Positions 10,557 to 18,517 of a stretch of DNA of 37,515 bases are shown here, in pieces (the first letter of the stretch is position 1; the number at the start of each line of letters is the position of its first letter). Both the position numbers and the translations under genes were made by a program. The notes under the pieces are model-generated. The model made no database searches, had not been told where the DNA came from, and saw only the letters and a program-made list of their open reading frames with translations. The DNA is from Spirochaetota bacterium (GTDB lineage Bacteria > Spirochaetota > B62-G9 > DRHN01). The stretch is taken from assembly GCA_011049595.1 (NCBI GenBank), contig DRHN01000122.1:1-37515 (forward strand). The letters run 5' to 3'.

Positions 10557-10620
10557 AATATTCTTGCGCATTTGGCAAGAATATTCTTTTATAAAGAAAG
10601 TGGCTGCCGCTTTAGGGGTC
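10557..10620 (+). repeat. Two-hairpin dispersed repeat, copy 3 (diverged)
   Basis: AATATTCTTG(10557-10566)/CAAGAATATT(10576-10585), AATAAAG-like linker, AAAGTGG(10597-10603)/CCGCTTT(10607-10613), AGGGGTC. Stem differences from copies 1 and 2 are compensatory. Confidence 0.8.
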
Positions 10621-11814
10621 CAGAATAATTATCTCGACCCGCCTGTTTTTCTTTCTGCCTTCCTCTGTTTCATTGTCTGCTATGGGTTTATTCTCTCCCA
10701 TTCCCATATAGGTGATTCTGCCGTAAAGCTCGGGCAGTATTTTTTTAAGCTCCACGACCGTTTTTTTTGCCCTCCTCAATGACAGAGATCGATTGTAATC
10801 CTGGGGTCCTCTGCTGTCAGTATGTCCTATGACCCTGATGTTTCGATCAGAAAACTCTTTTAACACTTCAACAATATTAGCCAGATCTTCTGTCGCACCC
10901 TCTACAAGCTCATCTGAGTCAAATTTAAAGATTATCTCCCCAATATTTATCACTATTCCCTGGTCGGTTTTCGTTACCTCTACGGATGGGATCTTGTCCT
11001 GCAGTTTGTCCATGATCTGTTCGGCGTTTTTCAAAGATACACGAGGCTCTTGGGTAACAGAGAGTGTTGCGTTCGCTTTACCTGTGTATTCTACCGTTTC
11101 ACCATTAGACATTATAAAAACGTAATCGAAGTTTTCTTTATATGAATGGGGTAATCCTTTATCTAAATTCCAAAGAAAAAGCTGGTTAAAATAGCCAATT
11201 ATGCGGTAGGGCATTGGAATATCGGAACCGGGATCATTGCTGTATTTCAAAGTATAGTTTATTACATAGTTGATCGATATTTTTGCAATTTTTTCACCGC
11301 CGATCTCAGTATTTCCAATATATTGATAGGATACAGCCGCCGGAAGTAAAACAGGTTTAAGTATACCGTAAAGCTGTCTAAAATCGTGAGCTTCATACGC
11401 ACGCGAAGACCACTGGTCTCCGATTTCGACTTCGGTTTCCGGAAATGTCGGGACACCTCTTACAACAGGCATGAAATACATTTCCGATATTTCGTAGTTC
11501 CCGTATATATCCCTGTAAAACTTGGAAGGGTATTCATCCACGAGAATGTAATCACCGGAGATCTCTTCTCCGGTATAATACCTGTATACACCTTCGTGAA
11601 AAGCGCGGTCATCTTTTACCTCAGTCACAAGCAGGTCGCCCGTGTTTTTGATGCTTATTCTTTTAATGAATATATCATTTCTATACAGATCTTCATTAAC
11701 AAAACCTTCAATAAAAAACCTTTGACCAGGTTTGTAATTGAATTGAAAAATTTCCCCAGCGTACGCAGCAGTACAGGCAATTAGAAAAAAAATAAGAGTT
11801 ATGATTTTTTTCAT
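10612..11814 (-). CDS. OmpA-family protein (C-terminal peptidoglycan-binding domain)
   Basis: Signal peptide; C-terminal 'IRVIGHTDSRGPQDYNRSLSLRRAKKTVVELKK...GMGENKPIADNETEEGRKKNRRVEIIILDP'. Confidence 0.93.
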   Translation of the reverse strand: MKKIITLIFFLIACTAAYAGEIFQFNYKPGQRFFIEGFVNEDLYRNDIFIKRISIKNTGDLLVTEVKDDRAFHEGVYRYYTGEEISGDYILVDEYPSKFYRDIYGNYEISEMYFMPVVRGVPTFPETEVEIGDQWSSRAYEAHDFRQLYGILKPVLLPAAVSYQYIGNTEIGGEKIAKISINYVINYTLKYSNDPGSDIPMPYRIIGYFNQLFLWNLDKGLPHSYKENFDYVFIMSNGETVEYTGKANATLSVTQEPRVSLKNAEQIMDKLQDKIPSVEVTKTDQGIVINIGEIIFKFDSDELVEGATEDLANIVEVLKEFSDRNIRVIGHTDSRGPQDYNRSLSLRRAKKTVVELKKILPELYGRITYMGMGENKPIADNETEEGRKKNRRVEIIILDP

Positions 11815-11848: not shown

Positions 11849-12688
11849 TCAACCCTCTTTAAGACCTGTCAAAGTAATACCTTTTATAAACTGTTTCTGG
11901 GCAATTAAGAAAAGAACCAGTATCGGTATGGTTGCGATTGTCGTCCCTGCCATAAGCTGACCCCAGTTTAGCCCGCCCTCTTCTTTGAACATGGCGAGAC
12001 CGTACTGGAGAGTCCGAATTTCAATCCTGTTTGTAACGATGAGAGGCCAAAGATAGTTGTTCCAGCTCCACATAAAAGTAAAAATAGCGAGCGTGGCCAG
12101 GATGGGGCGCGCAAGCGGTATCATGATCCTGAAAAGAAAATTAAAATGGTTACACCCGTCGAGTGTAGCAGCTTCTTCCAGCTCCTTCGGGATAGTAAGA
12201 AAAAATTGCCTCAGGAGAAAGGTGCCGAATGCGCTTGAAATAAAAGGTACGATCATCGCCGCGTAAGTATCAATTAATCTGAAAAAATTCAGTATGATAT
12301 ATACCGGTATCATTATAACGTGCTGAGGGATCATCATGGTGCCAAGCAGGATGTAAAAAAGACCATCCCGGAAAGGAAATTTCAACCGTGAAAAAGCATA
12401 AGCGGAAAGGGAGCAGGTGATCAACTGACTTACTGTAATACTAACAGAAACGATCAGACTGTTTATGAAAAACCTGACTATTGGTATGGATTTTATCACG
12501 TTTTTATAATTTACAAAGGTGATCTGCCTCGGGACCAGGTTAAATGGGTCTGAAAGCACCTCCCGCATATCTTTTAATGAAGTGGATATTCCCCATATAA
12601 AAGGAAATATCATTACAACAGCGCCTGTAATCAAGATAACGTGCAGAATAGTGTGTTTTATATATACCTTGACAGCCTGTTTTTTCAA
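11849..12688 (-). CDS. Carbohydrate ABC transporter permease (MalG-type)
   Basis: Multi-TM; EAA-loop-like 'IPKELEEAATLDGCNHFNFLFRIMIPLARPILATLAIFTFMWSWNNYLWPL'. Confidence 0.94.
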   Translation of the reverse strand: MKKQAVKVYIKHTILHVILITGAVVMIFPFIWGISTSLKDMREVLSDPFNLVPRQITFVNYKNVIKSIPIVRFFINSLIVSVSITVSQLITCSLSAYAFSRLKFPFRDGLFYILLGTMMIPQHVIMIPVYIILNFFRLIDTYAAMIVPFISSAFGTFLLRQFFLTIPKELEEAATLDGCNHFNFLFRIMIPLARPILATLAIFTFMWSWNNYLWPLIVTNRIEIRTLQYGLAMFKEEGGLNWGQLMAGTTIATIPILVLFLIAQKQFIKGITLTGLKEG

Positions 12689-13644
12689 TAATGGATCCTC
12701 CCGCCAAGGATCTTCACCTGAAAATAGGTAAGAATAATAACGATCGCGAACAGAATAAACGCGGCAGACGAAGCAAAACCAACCTCAAGAAATCTGAACG
12801 CTCTTTCATATATAAAATATACAAGGACAAGAGAAGCGTTCAACGGGCCGCCCTTGGTGGTAACAGCGATCTGTTCAAAAACTTGAAAAGAAACGATAAC
12901 CGACATTATCAGAACAAAAAAAGTTGTCGGGCTCAGGATCGGCAAAGTAATAGCAAAAAAACGCTTGACCGGTCCCGCACCATCTATCTCGGCGGCTTCA
13001 TAATAGCTTTTTGGAATATTCTGAAGGCCGGCAAGAATAATTATCATGTAATATCCTGTATTTTTCCAGATACTCATGATACTGATGGCCACAAGGGTCA
13101 CACTCGGGCCGCCTAAAAAATCAGGGAGCTTTACGCCGATATAATCGAATATAACGGAAAATATTCCTTTTGGTTCGTTCAGCCAGGAAAGAGGCCCAAA
13201 CCCAAAAAATCCCATTATGTAGTTTAATATGCCGTTATGGGACTGGAAAATCCACTGCCAGATAAAAGCGCTTGCAACAACAGAGGTCATCACGGGCATA
13301 AAGTATGCGGCCCTGTAAAAAGCGATGCCTTTGATCTTTGAATTCAATAAAAGTGCAAGAAACAGGGACAAACAAATACCAATAGGGACAGTGATAAATG
13401 TATAGTAAAAGGTATTTGTCAGAGCTGTCCAGAACTCTTCCATCTGGAAAAGTTTTTTATAATTTGTAATACCGGTAAATTTTATGTTTCCGAGAAGGTT
13501 CCATTTGTTAAAGCTGAGATAGAAAGCGAAAAAAATAGGCACTATGATAAAAATGGACAGGATCAGATAAGTAGGAAGAATATAGAGAAGGGATTTTACA
13601 ACTTCCCGGTTCCTGTATTTATGAGTCAAAGGCTGTATTTTCAT
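12685..13644 (-). CDS. Sugar ABC transporter permease (MalF-type)
   Basis: Multi-TM; 'IPKSYYEAAEIDGAGPVKRFFAITLPILSPTTFFVLIM' EAA loop; 4-nt overlap with the next gene. Confidence 0.94.
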   Translation of the reverse strand: MKIQPLTHKYRNREVVKSLLYILPTYLILSIFIIVPIFFAFYLSFNKWNLLGNIKFTGITNYKKLFQMEEFWTALTNTFYYTFITVPIGICLSLFLALLLNSKIKGIAFYRAAYFMPVMTSVVASAFIWQWIFQSHNGILNYIMGFFGFGPLSWLNEPKGIFSVIFDYIGVKLPDFLGGPSVTLVAISIMSIWKNTGYYMIIILAGLQNIPKSYYEAAEIDGAGPVKRFFAITLPILSPTTFFVLIMSVIVSFQVFEQIAVTTKGGPLNASLVLVYFIYERAFRFLEVGFASSAAFILFAIVIILTYFQVKILGGRIHY

Positions 13645-13647
13645 CTA

Positions 13648-14790
13648 TTATAATCTCTTCTGAAAATTCAGCATAATACCCTTTCCAAATGCAATCTCCA
13701 TTATAAAGGGGTCCAGGAACCTGGTGTACCAATGCAGACCGATCCCCCCTCCGATGAGAAACTGAAGACTATCTTTCCCAATTACATTTGTATCAACAAA
13801 AGGTACTATAATTAAATCATTATTCCAGGGAAGCGGAACACTGAGATCATTTGAAAGTGATATCCGTTTGTTCCCCTGGTACAAATCAAAATGGGTTCCC
13901 CTGACGTTTGATTTCAAGATGAGATTATCAGGGACATTCCCTCCCTGAAGATTAACATCGACATTTAACGAATATACTATTTTAAAAAAAAGGTCCCTGT
14001 ACAGATGAAACCCTGAATCTATGCCGTACATTGATGTGCCATTAAAATTATAACCGTAGTAGGGCGTAATTGAAGTAAAGTACCAGGTCTTAATTTTTGA
14101 CGATCGTCTATCCCTGGTACCGATCTCGATATATGGGGAAAAAAGGGCAGTATTGAAATCGTGATGGTTGATAGCCAGCCTGGCGCCTGCATTAAGGTCC
14201 TCTTTGATCCTGTATCCCGCACCTGGGGACAAAGAAAACCAGGTTTCACCGTCCCTTAAAGAATAGAGATACTTGAAATCGATCATATAAAATATTTTAT
14301 TATTAAAGGAACCCGAATAATTGAAAAAAAGACCTGCATTTTCGTAAACCGGCACATAAACGGAAATAATATCAGAAATACCGAACATATTTATGTAAGA
14401 CAGATAAAGTAAATTGTTAAAATAAAAAACTTTGTCCTCGTAAATAAAATATCCTTCAGGTCCGAAAAGCAGGTAGTTTTTTTCTCTCAACTGAACAGTG
14501 AGGATTAAATTGTTTGCGTCATCCAGCTCATCGTCAAAAAATATATTGGTGAACAACTCAGTGTGTTCAAGTTTTGACCTGCTTTCATTTATCTTCTCGA
14601 TAATTGTGTCAAGATCATAGGTTTTTCCTTCCTCCAGGGTAATAAAAGATCGGATATAGGTTTCACGGGTAACTTTATTGCCTTTTATTGTCAGTTGTTT
14701 GAGAAAAATGATATCATCTTCAGCAATTAAGCTGGAAAAGGCCAATAAAAAGATTATAACAAGAATGATATGAGCTTTCCAGTTCATCAA
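13648..14790 (-). CDS. Single-POTRA Omp85/TamA-like outer-membrane beta-barrel protein
   Basis: Signal peptide, N-terminal POTRA-like 'LKQLTIKGNKVTRETYIRSFITLEEGKTYDLDTIIEKINESRSKLEHTELFTNIFF', then alternating amphipathic strands and a 'VRGTHFDLYQGNKRISLSNDLSVPL' segment resembling the Omp85 VRGF/Y region. Confidence 0.75.
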   Translation of the reverse strand: MMNWKAHIILVIIFLLAFSSLIAEDDIIFLKQLTIKGNKVTRETYIRSFITLEEGKTYDLDTIIEKINESRSKLEHTELFTNIFFDDELDDANNLILTVQLREKNYLLFGPEGYFIYEDKVFYFNNLLYLSYINMFGISDIISVYVPVYENAGLFFNYSGSFNNKIFYMIDFKYLYSLRDGETWFSLSPGAGYRIKEDLNAGARLAINHHDFNTALFSPYIEIGTRDRRSSKIKTWYFTSITPYYGYNFNGTSMYGIDSGFHLYRDLFFKIVYSLNVDVNLQGGNVPDNLILKSNVRGTHFDLYQGNKRISLSNDLSVPLPWNNDLIIVPFVDTNVIGKDSLQFLIGGGIGLHWYTRFLDPFIMEIAFGKGIMLNFQKRL

Positions 14791-16067
14791 TATTCCTTTT
14801 CTTTAAGCAGCTCATTGACTTTTTCCGCGGCATTGTTAAGGACCATTTCAGGGTCTTTTCTGTTTATCATTATATCTTCAATCGCGTAGCGCACGATTTG
14901 ATCGATCTGGGGAAGATAGGGAGTAAAATCCGGAGGTCTGGAATAGGAAAGCTGTTCCACGGGGACTTTGTAGTTCGGGTTTAACCTGTGAAAACCCTGC
15001 AGCTCAAAACTGTCGATTGCGGATCTCCTGATCGGCAGGTATCCTGTTTCCTTGTGCCACCTGATACTGTTTTCTTTATTTGTCAGCCAGTTTATAAAAC
15101 TCATTGCTGCCTTTCTTTTGGACGATGATTTTGCAAATGTGACAATACCGGCACCGCCAAGGAGAACAGATTTATTTTCAATGTATGGTAGAGGAGCAAT
15201 TCCCAGTGTCCATGGAAGGTTTTCTTCCGCAAACTTGATCCCGGCGCACGTAATAGGCCCCATAGCGATTTTTCCCTGAAGAAAAGCGTTAGTGCCTTCA
15301 AAAAGTGTCCAATTGGACGGCATTATTTTATACTTGTAGGCCATATCCATGACGAGCTTCATAACTTTGACACCCTCAAGGCTGTTGAACGTGGCCCTGG
15401 TGCGGCTGTTATTTAAAAATTCACCGCCGACCTGTCTTATAAGAGGTGTAAACCCGAACACCCCCTCAAGGGAGATTAACACCCCCCATTGATCGATGGT
15501 CCCATCCTGGTCGAAATCTTTGGTAAGTTTTTTGCCGTAATCGATAACATCGTCCCAGGTTTTTGGCGGTTTTTCGGGATCAAGGCCCGCCTTTTTAAAT
15601 GCATCTTTATTGTAATAAAGCACCTGGACACTTTGATTAAAGGGAATAGCATATATTTCTCTCTCCCGGGAAACCCCGTTCCAGAATTGACCTAGAATGT
15701 CATTTTTGTCGTCATCTGAAATATCGTCGGTGATCGGTTCTATTTTATTTTCTTCAATAAAAATATCAAGGTACTCGATGGCTACCTGGGCAAGGTCCGG
15801 TAGATCTCCTGTTTTTACAGAATTAATCAATTTTGTTTTCATGTCATCATAAAGACCCTGAAAGACTAATTTAACCTTTATATCTTTATTTATCTGATTA
15901 TACTCTTCGATGAGCTTTTCCAGTGTGTCGCCCTGGTATATACTCATACTGTGCCAGAACGTTAATTCGATATTTCTCTTTCTTATCCCTCCGGCGTCCA
16001 AAAGTCCTGGAGATGCAGCAAGCAACAAAAGTATGCAGGAGATAATTACCGGCAAAAATTTTTTCAT
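14787..16067 (-). CDS. ABC transporter extracellular sugar-binding protein
   Basis: Signal peptide without an obvious lipobox, 'ELTFWHSMSIYQGDTLEKLIEEYNQINKDIKVKLVFQG', 'PKTWDDVIDYGKKLTKDFDQDGTIDQWG'. Confidence 0.94.
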   Translation of the reverse strand: MKKFLPVIISCILLLLAASPGLLDAGGIRKRNIELTFWHSMSIYQGDTLEKLIEEYNQINKDIKVKLVFQGLYDDMKTKLINSVKTGDLPDLAQVAIEYLDIFIEENKIEPITDDISDDDKNDILGQFWNGVSREREIYAIPFNQSVQVLYYNKDAFKKAGLDPEKPPKTWDDVIDYGKKLTKDFDQDGTIDQWGVLISLEGVFGFTPLIRQVGGEFLNNSRTRATFNSLEGVKVMKLVMDMAYKYKIMPSNWTLFEGTNAFLQGKIAMGPITCAGIKFAEENLPWTLGIAPLPYIENKSVLLGGAGIVTFAKSSSKRKAAMSFINWLTNKENSIRWHKETGYLPIRRSAIDSFELQGFHRLNPNYKVPVEQLSYSRPPDFTPYLPQIDQIVRYAIEDIMINRKDPEMVLNNAAEKVNELLKEKEY

Positions 16068-16145: not shown

Positions 16146-17504
16146 TTAAGGTGCATTTGATTGATCTATTATTCTATTGATTTCAATAATATACCAATGA
16201 TCAAGATATTCTTTAAGATAAAGTGTTTCTTTAATAGAGTATACGGTAATTTCTTCTCCCGTATTTAAAACTTTTGTGTACTTTACAAAAAATATTGAGG
16301 TTTCATTATCCCCTGATTCGCTGATTTCGAAATCTTTAAGATAGTATGTTTTTTCACTTTGAGATTCATCATTCCCACTATTTAATTCTTCTGCAACAGC
16401 TGGACCTTGACCGTAAATTTGTCTCATTTTTAGAATGACATACAGTGAGCCCAGCTCATTTTTTATTTTTCTTCCCGCCCTTTTGTAAAAAACATAGTCT
16501 ACTATTTCCAGATCAAGATCATTAACTGCTTTATAATAAAGCTCGACGACCTGACCGGCATTTAAGCCTGCGGTATAATCGATTTTTCTGTTTTCGGAAA
16601 GATAACCGCGAAACATGTAGGCTGCGATGCCTGTTAAAATAATAGCCAGTATTATGAGTTTTTTCCTTCTCTCAAAAAGTTCACTCAATGAACTGAAAAA
16701 AATTATCAATGAACTGTTTCTGAAAATTTTTTTCCATACAGGAAATCCGGATTGTCCCTCAGAATATTTACCGCCAAGGGTTTCGTCGATAAGCTTGACT
16801 ATCCTGTTAAGCCCGGTATTTTTTCCACGCATGACCTCCCACAATACATCCGAGAAAAAACAGGGGACATCATCGATCAGGTCCGAAAGATAAAATACCG
16901 GTTCGGGCCGCAAGGAGCCCTTTTTATCTTTCCGCATTTTAATAAAATGCATATAAACCAGCCGGGCCAAAGACTCCGAAAACACGCTTTCGTCAGAGGT
17001 CAGCATATCGGGTTTGTGTTCAAAACAAAAATATAAAATGCTCTGCAGGTCAGGATCCCGATACTTGTTGAGAAAGTCAATTAGCTTTATAGGAAGAAAG
17101 ATAAATGTATTGTTCTCTGTATTATAAAGGATACTGTTCAGGATCAAAGGGTGATATAAACCGGTTTTGCTTAGGAGTACCTCTTCCGCTTTGATTAATT
17201 CTCTGAAAATATGGAAATACTTTGTAACACTGCCGGATAAAAATGTATTTGCTTGAAAATCCTGATAAAGCTCATAAAGAGAACTCCCCTTAATTTCAGG
17301 GCCGGATAAATAAAGCCCGCCGTCTCTGTTTACAACGTCGTTAAACGTTGAGATCGATAATTCAGGGCCCGTAACCGTATATATTTTTTCATCCAGGTGT
17401 GTCTTTAAACCGGATATTACCGAAATCATGGTCTGTTTGGAGCTGCCGATCTCACGAATTCCAGTGAAGTACATCCGGTATGGTTCTGATTTTTTCATAT
17501 GCAA
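16146..17504 (-). CDS. Membrane-anchored protein with possible degenerate protein-kinase-like N-terminal region
   Basis: 452 aa with one TM near 'LIILAIILTGIAAYMF'; 'GLYHPLILNSILYNTENNTFIFLPI' weakly recalls an eroded kinase catalytic loop. ORF well supported, function speculative. Confidence 0.6.
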   Translation of the reverse strand: MHMKKSEPYRMYFTGIREIGSSKQTMISVISGLKTHLDEKIYTVTGPELSISTFNDVVNRDGGLYLSGPEIKGSSLYELYQDFQANTFLSGSVTKYFHIFRELIKAEEVLLSKTGLYHPLILNSILYNTENNTFIFLPIKLIDFLNKYRDPDLQSILYFCFEHKPDMLTSDESVFSESLARLVYMHFIKMRKDKKGSLRPEPVFYLSDLIDDVPCFFSDVLWEVMRGKNTGLNRIVKLIDETLGGKYSEGQSGFPVWKKIFRNSSLIIFFSSLSELFERRKKLIILAIILTGIAAYMFRGYLSENRKIDYTAGLNAGQVVELYYKAVNDLDLEIVDYVFYKRAGRKIKNELGSLYVILKMRQIYGQGPAVAEELNSGNDESQSEKTYYLKDFEISESGDNETSIFFVKYTKVLNTGEEITVYSIKETLYLKEYLDHWYIIEINRIIDQSNAP

Positions 17505-17581
17505 TTAGCCTAAATTAAAATATTTTATAATAGTATTTCTGTCAAGATATTAAAAGAGTTTATTTTTTGGTAAGAGAAAAT

Positions 17582-18517
17582 ATGTACGTTCGTGAGGCTG
17601 AAAATAAGGGAAAATTTATAAAACCGTGCCCGGGAACACCAAGGTATCTGTGCTGCGGATACAAAATAATCGATTTCGCTCACGGTTGCAATTTAGGGTG
17701 CAGCTACTGCATTTTGAGCAGCTATCTCGGTAACGAACCTCCTACTATCTACAAAAACACAGATAAATTATTTTCTGAGCTTGGACCCTACCTTGGTAAA
17801 CAGAGGGGAATAAACAGGTTCGGCACCGGTGAATTCACAGACAGCCTGTTATCGGAGCAGGCCCTTGGGTTTTACAATGCTTTGATACCCATGTTCTCAC
17901 GCAGTAAAAATGCAGTGCTTGAATTAAAAACAAAGACAGCAAACATAAACGGGTTAATAAAGATCAGAGATCACGATAACACGATTGTATCATGGTCTTT
18001 AAACAGCAATTATACAGCCCGTAGAGATGAAAAAAAAGCCCCCGGTATAGAAGACAGGATAAAAGCGGCTTACAGAGCGCAGGAAGCCGGATTTAAACTG
18101 GCATTTCACTTTGACCCGATAATAATTCATGAATCCTGGGAAGATGGGTACAGGAGAACTATTGATCTGATCTTCGAGAAAATCCACACCGAAAATGTAG
18201 TTTACATTAGCATGGGGACGTTGAGGTTTTTGCCGAAAATGAAAAATGTTATGCGAAAAATCAGCAAAGGTAATAATGAATGGGAATTTATAAAGGGGTT
18301 GGACAACAAAATAAGATATTTCAGGCCGATCAGAACCGTTGTCTACCAAAGGATCAAGTCATATCTACAATGTTTCGTGGAAGAGGACATACTTTATATG
18401 TGCATGGAAAATCCAACTGTCTGGGAGGATGTATTTAAAATCAGGCACATGACTACGAAAAAATTGACCGATAGACTCGATAAAGCCTGTTTTGACAAAT
18501 TTGATTTAAAACAGTAG
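17582..18517 (+). CDS. SPL-family radical SAM protein (spore photoproduct lyase-like)
   Basis: 'FAHGCNLGCSYCILSSYLGNEPP' gives CX3CX2C; 'INRFGTGEFTDSLLSEQ', 'FHFDPIIIHESWEDGYRRTIDLIF'. ORF track begins at TTG 17567; ATG at 17582 is also plausible. Confidence 0.85.
   Translation: MYVREAENKGKFIKPCPGTPRYLCCGYKIIDFAHGCNLGCSYCILSSYLGNEPPTIYKNTDKLFSELGPYLGKQRGINRFGTGEFTDSLLSEQALGFYNALIPMFSRSKNAVLELKTKTANINGLIKIRDHDNTIVSWSLNSNYTARRDEKKAPGIEDRIKAAYRAQEAGFKLAFHFDPIIIHESWEDGYRRTIDLIFEKIHTENVVYISMGTLRFLPKMKNVMRKISKGNNEWEFIKGLDNKIRYFRPIRTVVYQRIKSYLQCFVEEDILYMCMENPTVWEDVFKIRHMTTKKLTDRLDKACFDKFDLKQ

Follow-up and report, generated by a model that had tools for sequence, protein, structure and literature searches.

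The window analysed here, a 37,515-nucleotide (nt) stretch of a Spirochaetota genome (contig DRHN01000122.1), carries on its minus strand four consecutive genes for a solute-binding protein (SBP), an Omp85-type barrel protein and the two permeases of a CUT1-type ATP-binding cassette (ABC) importer (Table 1). Judged from profile comparisons and a structure model, the product of 13648-14790 is an Omp85 protein, best called a mini-BamA. It can tentatively be regarded as a dedicated outer membrane partner of the importer, with its POTRA domain facing the binding protein, and this reading is favoured over a role in assembly or lipid handling, which appears less probable. This assignment is based on the position of the barrel gene inside the operon, on its conservation across an order and on the conserved periplasmic face that it encodes. 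All of the parts belong to known families, and the novelty lies in their combination: no Omp85 protein combined with an SBP/ABC importer was found in the open-access papers searched.

Table 1. Predicted features of the importer operon and its surroundings (positions in the window)
Feature	Position	Strand	Basis
CUT1 SBP, Ugp-type, 426 amino acids (aa), signal peptide	14787..16067	-	Pfam, PDB match, orthologues
Mini-Omp85: signal peptide, one POTRA, 16-strand barrel	13648..14787 (ATG start)	-	Pfam, AlphaFold2 (AF2), Foldseek, profiles
POTRA domain, resembling BamA POTRA5	14482..14700	-	PF07244, 27.3 bits on DNA; hhalign to spirochaete BamA
Loop L6 region with VRGT, residues 285-307 (counted from the TTG at 14790)	13870..13938	-	Alignment and AF2 model
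MalF/UgpA-type permease, EAA motif EAAEIDGAG	12685..13644	-	BPD_transp_1
MalG/UgpE-type permease, EAA motif EAATLDGCN	11849..12688	-	BPD_transp_1
OmpA-family peptidoglycan-binding protein	10612..11814	-	PF00691, 5e-17; 34 nt downstream of MalG
Protein with kinase-like domain, transmembrane (TM) helix and NTF2-like domain	16146..17504	-	Structure model, sequence reading
Radical SAM gene related to spore photoproduct lyase	17567-18517	+	Below family-specific NCBIfam cut-offs

All four open reading frames lie where the initial annotation had placed them. It described 4-nt overlaps both between the SBP and barrel genes and between the permease genes. The latter stands (TTGA, with a TTG start), whereas the former would hold only if the barrel started at a TTG at 14790, one codon before an ATG at 14787; with the ATG, the overlap is 1 nt (TGATG). 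Because this ATG falls in a Met column that is invariant among the orthologues, it is the likelier start. The gap between the barrel and MalF genes, put earlier at about 3 nt, measures 3 nt (TAATAGATG). With all junctions either overlaps or this short gap, the SBP, barrel, MalF and MalG genes are, from their sequence, translationally coupled, as had been proposed.

Conservation was surveyed in 296 Spirochaetota genomes, made up of eight from one order and 288 others. The eight belong to uncultured Spirochaetota, most of them incomplete, and represent seven genera in two families (six genomes from the family of the window and two from a sister family). The barrel protein is found in 8/296 genomes, all from this order. 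Its seven relatives were retrieved by an alignment-based scan; a single-protein scan retrieved none. No full-length relative was found in the 288 other genomes by profile search; these genomes gave matches to parts of POTRA domains, most of which lie in BamA-like frames of 800-1000 aa and a few in short Omp85 genes. A plasmid search found no homologue. This rarity is one within Spirochaetota, as the searches are blind to Omp85-plus-importer operons in other phyla. The gene order SBP-barrel-MalF-MalG is kept in 8/8 genomes as far as the contigs extend (those of G005 and G031 stop within the importer run), and in most of the genomes neighbouring genes of the run overlap or are separated by a very short gap. 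The arrangement, which the initial annotation suggested looking for elsewhere, is thus not unique to this genome. The SBP orthologue is confined to the same eight genomes (68-80% identity in the seven others) and is absent from the remaining 288.

The barrel evolves much faster than its neighbours, with a mean pairwise identity of 41% compared to 71% for the SBP and 77% for MalF. This divergence is uneven. The POTRA domain and strands 13-16 change most slowly (mean identity 54%, compared to 31% for strands 1-10), a pattern that a conserved partner at the periplasmic face would be expected to produce. Barrel distances correlate with those of MalF (r 0.80) and the SBP (r 0.76), and less strongly with those of the neighbouring radical SAM gene (0.50).

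The mini-Omp85 protein

The barrel protein has the conserved domain PF07244 (POTRA; 24.1 bits, Pfam cut-off 21.3), which is matched in 8/8 orthologues (best E-value: 8.8e-10). In a survey of the genome at the POTRA cut-off, only this gene scores above the threshold besides BamA, and the protein has exactly one match within its own genome. A second weak POTRA match, on contig C518, was rejected as it lies inside a sugar-ABC ATPase frame. A search of the PDB with the single barrel sequence gave chance matches only. Alignment to a profile of eleven spirochaete BamA proteins using hhalign gave a probability of 98.7 (E-value: 1.6e-16).

The structure was modelled with AF2 on an alignment of only eight orthologue rows, and the best of five models was retained (mean pLDDT 85, pTM 0.69; 60-71 mean pLDDT for the other four). 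The model has a signal helix followed by a POTRA domain of strands and helices (27-103) and 16 strands (107-378). The single POTRA-like domain of the initial annotation is therefore borne out by both profile and model. Its compact barrel of about 270 residues is retained as a barrel, while the loosely specified mini-barrel gives way to a full Omp85 barrel with a predicted 16 strands. Foldseek comparison of the model with the PDB places TamA and BamA as the top matches (E-values: 1e-13 to 1e-12).

The VRGT segment, previously likened to the Omp85 VRGF/Y region, occupies residues 296-299 between strands 11 and 12 of the model, which is the position of loop L6 in Omp85 proteins; this is the sole long extracellular loop. 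R297 and G298 are invariant in 8/8 orthologues, the motif being RGT in the family of the window and RGY in the second family. F331 and D333 of an FxD motif in strand 13 are likewise invariant in 8/8 and align with the FFD of spirochaete BamA. In the G005 barrel (L014:178-1389), SSVRGTY is duplicated in tandem in L6 with ~13 residues between the copies.

The importer and neighbouring genes

The SBP has the conserved domain SBP_bac_8/SBP_bac_1 (Pfam E-value: 1.9e-41) and is most similar in the PDB to E. coli UgpB (4aq4, E-value: 8e-49). Both permeases belong to BPD_transp_1 and have EAA motifs, which together with the SBP identifies the set as a CUT1 importer. The SBP and permeases are nearest to UgpB, UgpA and UgpE in NCBIfam, all under the equivalog cut-offs. 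The earlier designation as a sugar ABC importer stands for the importer gene set; a sugar may be the ligand, but the closest relatives are UgpB/A/E rather than a demonstrated sugar system. No convincing lipobox is present in the SBP, as had been noted: Cys11 lies within the hydrophobic stretch, and in 6/7 relatives (all but L013) there is no cysteine close to where the signal peptide ends. A lipoprotein was rejected on these grounds, which support a soluble periplasmic protein.

The ligand residues of UgpB are Tyr64, Glu88, Ser143, Trp188, Trp191, Ser266, Gly303, Tyr342 and Arg393 (PMC12718374). Both phosphate-binding Tyr, Trp188, Gly303 and one Ser are kept in the SBP; Glu88 is replaced by Ile/Val, Trp191 by Leu, and the Arg393 segment is deleted. 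As the pocket is only partly kept, the SBP was rejected as a true UgpB. Glycerol-3-phosphate is not supported as its ligand because the Glu, the second Trp and the Arg segment are changed or lost. The tested pocket positions are invariant or nearly so in 8/8 genomes, which therefore probably share one ligand. Orphan SBPs with 39-43% identity to that of the window are encoded in all relatives checked (L048-L056), several of them followed by an MscS-like or other membrane gene. At these loci there is no second barrel operon, with neither permeases nor a barrel alongside, and the orphan SBPs may share the MalF/MalG pair of the importer operon.

The four-gene run contains no ATPase gene, and an ATPase shared from elsewhere had been predicted. 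A conserved candidate is indeed encoded outside the run: an orphan MalK/UgpC-type gene (G000:C109:4439-5551, where G000 is the genome of the window), with no permease or SBP alongside, that adjoins a LacI-type regulator and pheS. It is found in 6/8 genomes (77-82% identity in the five further genomes) and would power this importer. Plug (TonB receptor) has only one match in 7/8 genomes of the order (C206 in G000), whereas G000 encodes at least 14 ATPase domains of MalK type.

Upstream of the SBP lies the gene for the kinase-like-TM-NTF2 protein, which is covered by no Pfam family. Its model has a mean pLDDT of 72, with low confidence in the NTF2-like domain, and the usual kinase catalytic motifs are unrecognisable when the sequence is read by eye. 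The gene precedes the SBP at full length in 5/8 genomes (the window and four others), overlapping it by 4 nt in three relatives. G002 and G003 lack the gene, and in G005 it is broken; the importer operon thus often extends upstream to this pseudokinase gene. Distant relatives (L127-L156) are widespread in Spirochaetota, occurring in ~40 other genomes where several adjoin HflK/HflC-like genes, so the protein is not specific to this importer. Downstream of MalG, the OmpA-family gene is in the same position in four genomes of the family and is probably associated with the operon. The radical SAM gene is divergent upstream of the operon and conserved in relatives.

Possible roles of the barrel protein

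The proposed model for the importer is as follows. A soluble periplasmic SBP and the MalF/MalG pair would form the inner membrane part of a CUT1 (Ugp-like) importer, powered by the separately encoded MalK/UgpC-type ATPase. The mini-BamA, with its one POTRA domain and 16-strand barrel, would sit in the outer membrane as the importer's own component and may act as a ligand entry pore or gate, its POTRA facing or docking the SBP. In its fullest and more doubtful form, this would be an envelope-spanning importer in which the ligand passes through a BamA-derived barrel whose single POTRA either delivers it to the SBP or is gated by the SBP, with no involvement of TonB.

A number of observations weigh against such a role. 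Known Omp85 proteins insert or translocate proteins, and to our knowledge none is a small-solute importer. Loop L6 probably occupies the lumen of the modelled barrel, and strands 15 and 16 are short, as at the BamA lateral gate. The genomes of the order have one or two TonB-dependent receptor genes each. At least 14 OB_MalK domains are encoded in G000, with many other MalK-type systems that have no Omp85 protein of their own, and general porins must exist. The distance correlations, drawn from eight taxa, fit interaction or shared descent alike, and the order-wide conservation probably represents one clade and one acquisition. The initial annotation went further in suggesting that the barrel takes the place of a TonB receptor or a classical porin; this is weakened because there are many ABC sugar-type systems without a barrel and TonB-dependent receptors are present.

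The most serious alternative, although somewhat unlikely, is that the barrel protein carries no ligand and instead serves in assembly or translocation, as a mini-BamA/TamA-like insertase or a lipid-handling Omp85, sharing the operon through a common envelope or nutrient response. Its homology to BamA POTRA5 and barrel, its best fold matches (TamA and BamA, all insertases), the complete L6 RG motif, the FxD in strand 13 and the short last strands resembling a lateral gate are all consistent with this. So are the short single-POTRA Omp85 genes of other Spirochaetota that adjoin ABC-2 exporter genes, and the POTRA-less Borrelia BBJ25, which adjoins a MacB-type exporter (PMC13078400). However, the barrel gene is inside the importer genes rather than beside them in 8/8 genomes, the operon encodes no substrate barrel, a BamA is already present in the genome and searches of the family yielded no TamB.

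It is improbable that the barrel is an accessory or regulatory partner with no ligand path, its POTRA tethering the SBP to the outer membrane or signalling the periplasmic state to the pseudokinase-TM-NTF2 protein. In several relatives the pseudokinase-like gene lies upstream of the SBP and is coupled to it, but the barrel is retained in the 3/8 genomes where that gene is missing or broken, and several pseudokinase relatives elsewhere adjoin HflK/HflC-like genes instead. It is similarly improbable that the gene order was frozen by accident when the operon formed, with barrel and importer functionally unlinked. The order is known in one clade only, and clade-specific operons can persist by descent, but it has been kept in two families and seven genera despite rearranged surroundings in which OmpA-family and pseudokinase genes come and go.

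If the barrel is indeed the importer's dedicated outer membrane partner, it belongs to a protein type with no earlier link to solute uptake. That a whole order keeps an Omp85 gene fixed among importer genes would point either to use of the Omp85 fold in solute uptake or to an importer that needs its own assembly factor. Were the ligand to enter through the barrel, an Omp85 protein would be taking part in the import of small solutes independently of TonB. The system bears on outer membrane solute passage in those spirochaetes where TonB receptors are few and ABC importers many.

Relation to known systems

Comparison with Omp85-type profiles, proposed in the initial annotation along with structure prediction, aligns the POTRA domain of the barrel protein with the last POTRA of BamA and the two barrels through the RGx and FxD motifs. 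The predicted strand number (16) and Foldseek matches are also shared, but the mini-Omp85 has one POTRA rather than five and 380 aa rather than about 845, and is encoded in an importer operon, whereas the genome's own BamA is on contig C330. The protein was rejected as BamA itself, given the one POTRA and a TIGR03303 score of 25.1 bits (NCBIfam cut-off 297). The best PDB fold match is TamA (4c00, E-value: 1.3e-13), which differs in having three POTRA domains. A TamA/TamB partnership was rejected because of the one POTRA and the lack of a TamB in the family: TamB (PF04357) was found in 0/6 genomes of the family and 1/2 of the sister family, most of these genomes being incomplete.

The importer most resembles UgpBAEC, which provides the best NCBIfam and PDB matches of the SBP and permeases and a partly kept pocket. 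It differs in having its ATPase encoded elsewhere, an Omp85 protein inside the operon and scores below the UgpB/A/E cut-offs.

In two further genomes of Spirochaetota, short single-POTRA Omp85 genes (L111:6904-8865 and L110:3983-7518) directly adjoin genes for an ABC-2 ATPase and permease. These resemble the present system in having a POTRA, a short C-terminal part and ABC transporter genes alongside, but the neighbours are of exporter type and profile similarity to the mini-Omp85 is mainly across the POTRA. The closest published case is Borrelia BBJ25, an Omp85 protein without POTRA in a cluster with a MacB/Lol-type transporter and LolA-like and chaperone proteins, proposed to be an exporter (PMC13078400). 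Both are short spirochaete Omp85 proteins encoded alongside an ABC transporter; the mini-Omp85, however, has a POTRA, and its transporter is a CUT1 importer with an SBP rather than a MacB-type exporter. Together, L111, L110 and BBJ25 suggest that short Omp85 proteins recur beside spirochaete ABC transporters.

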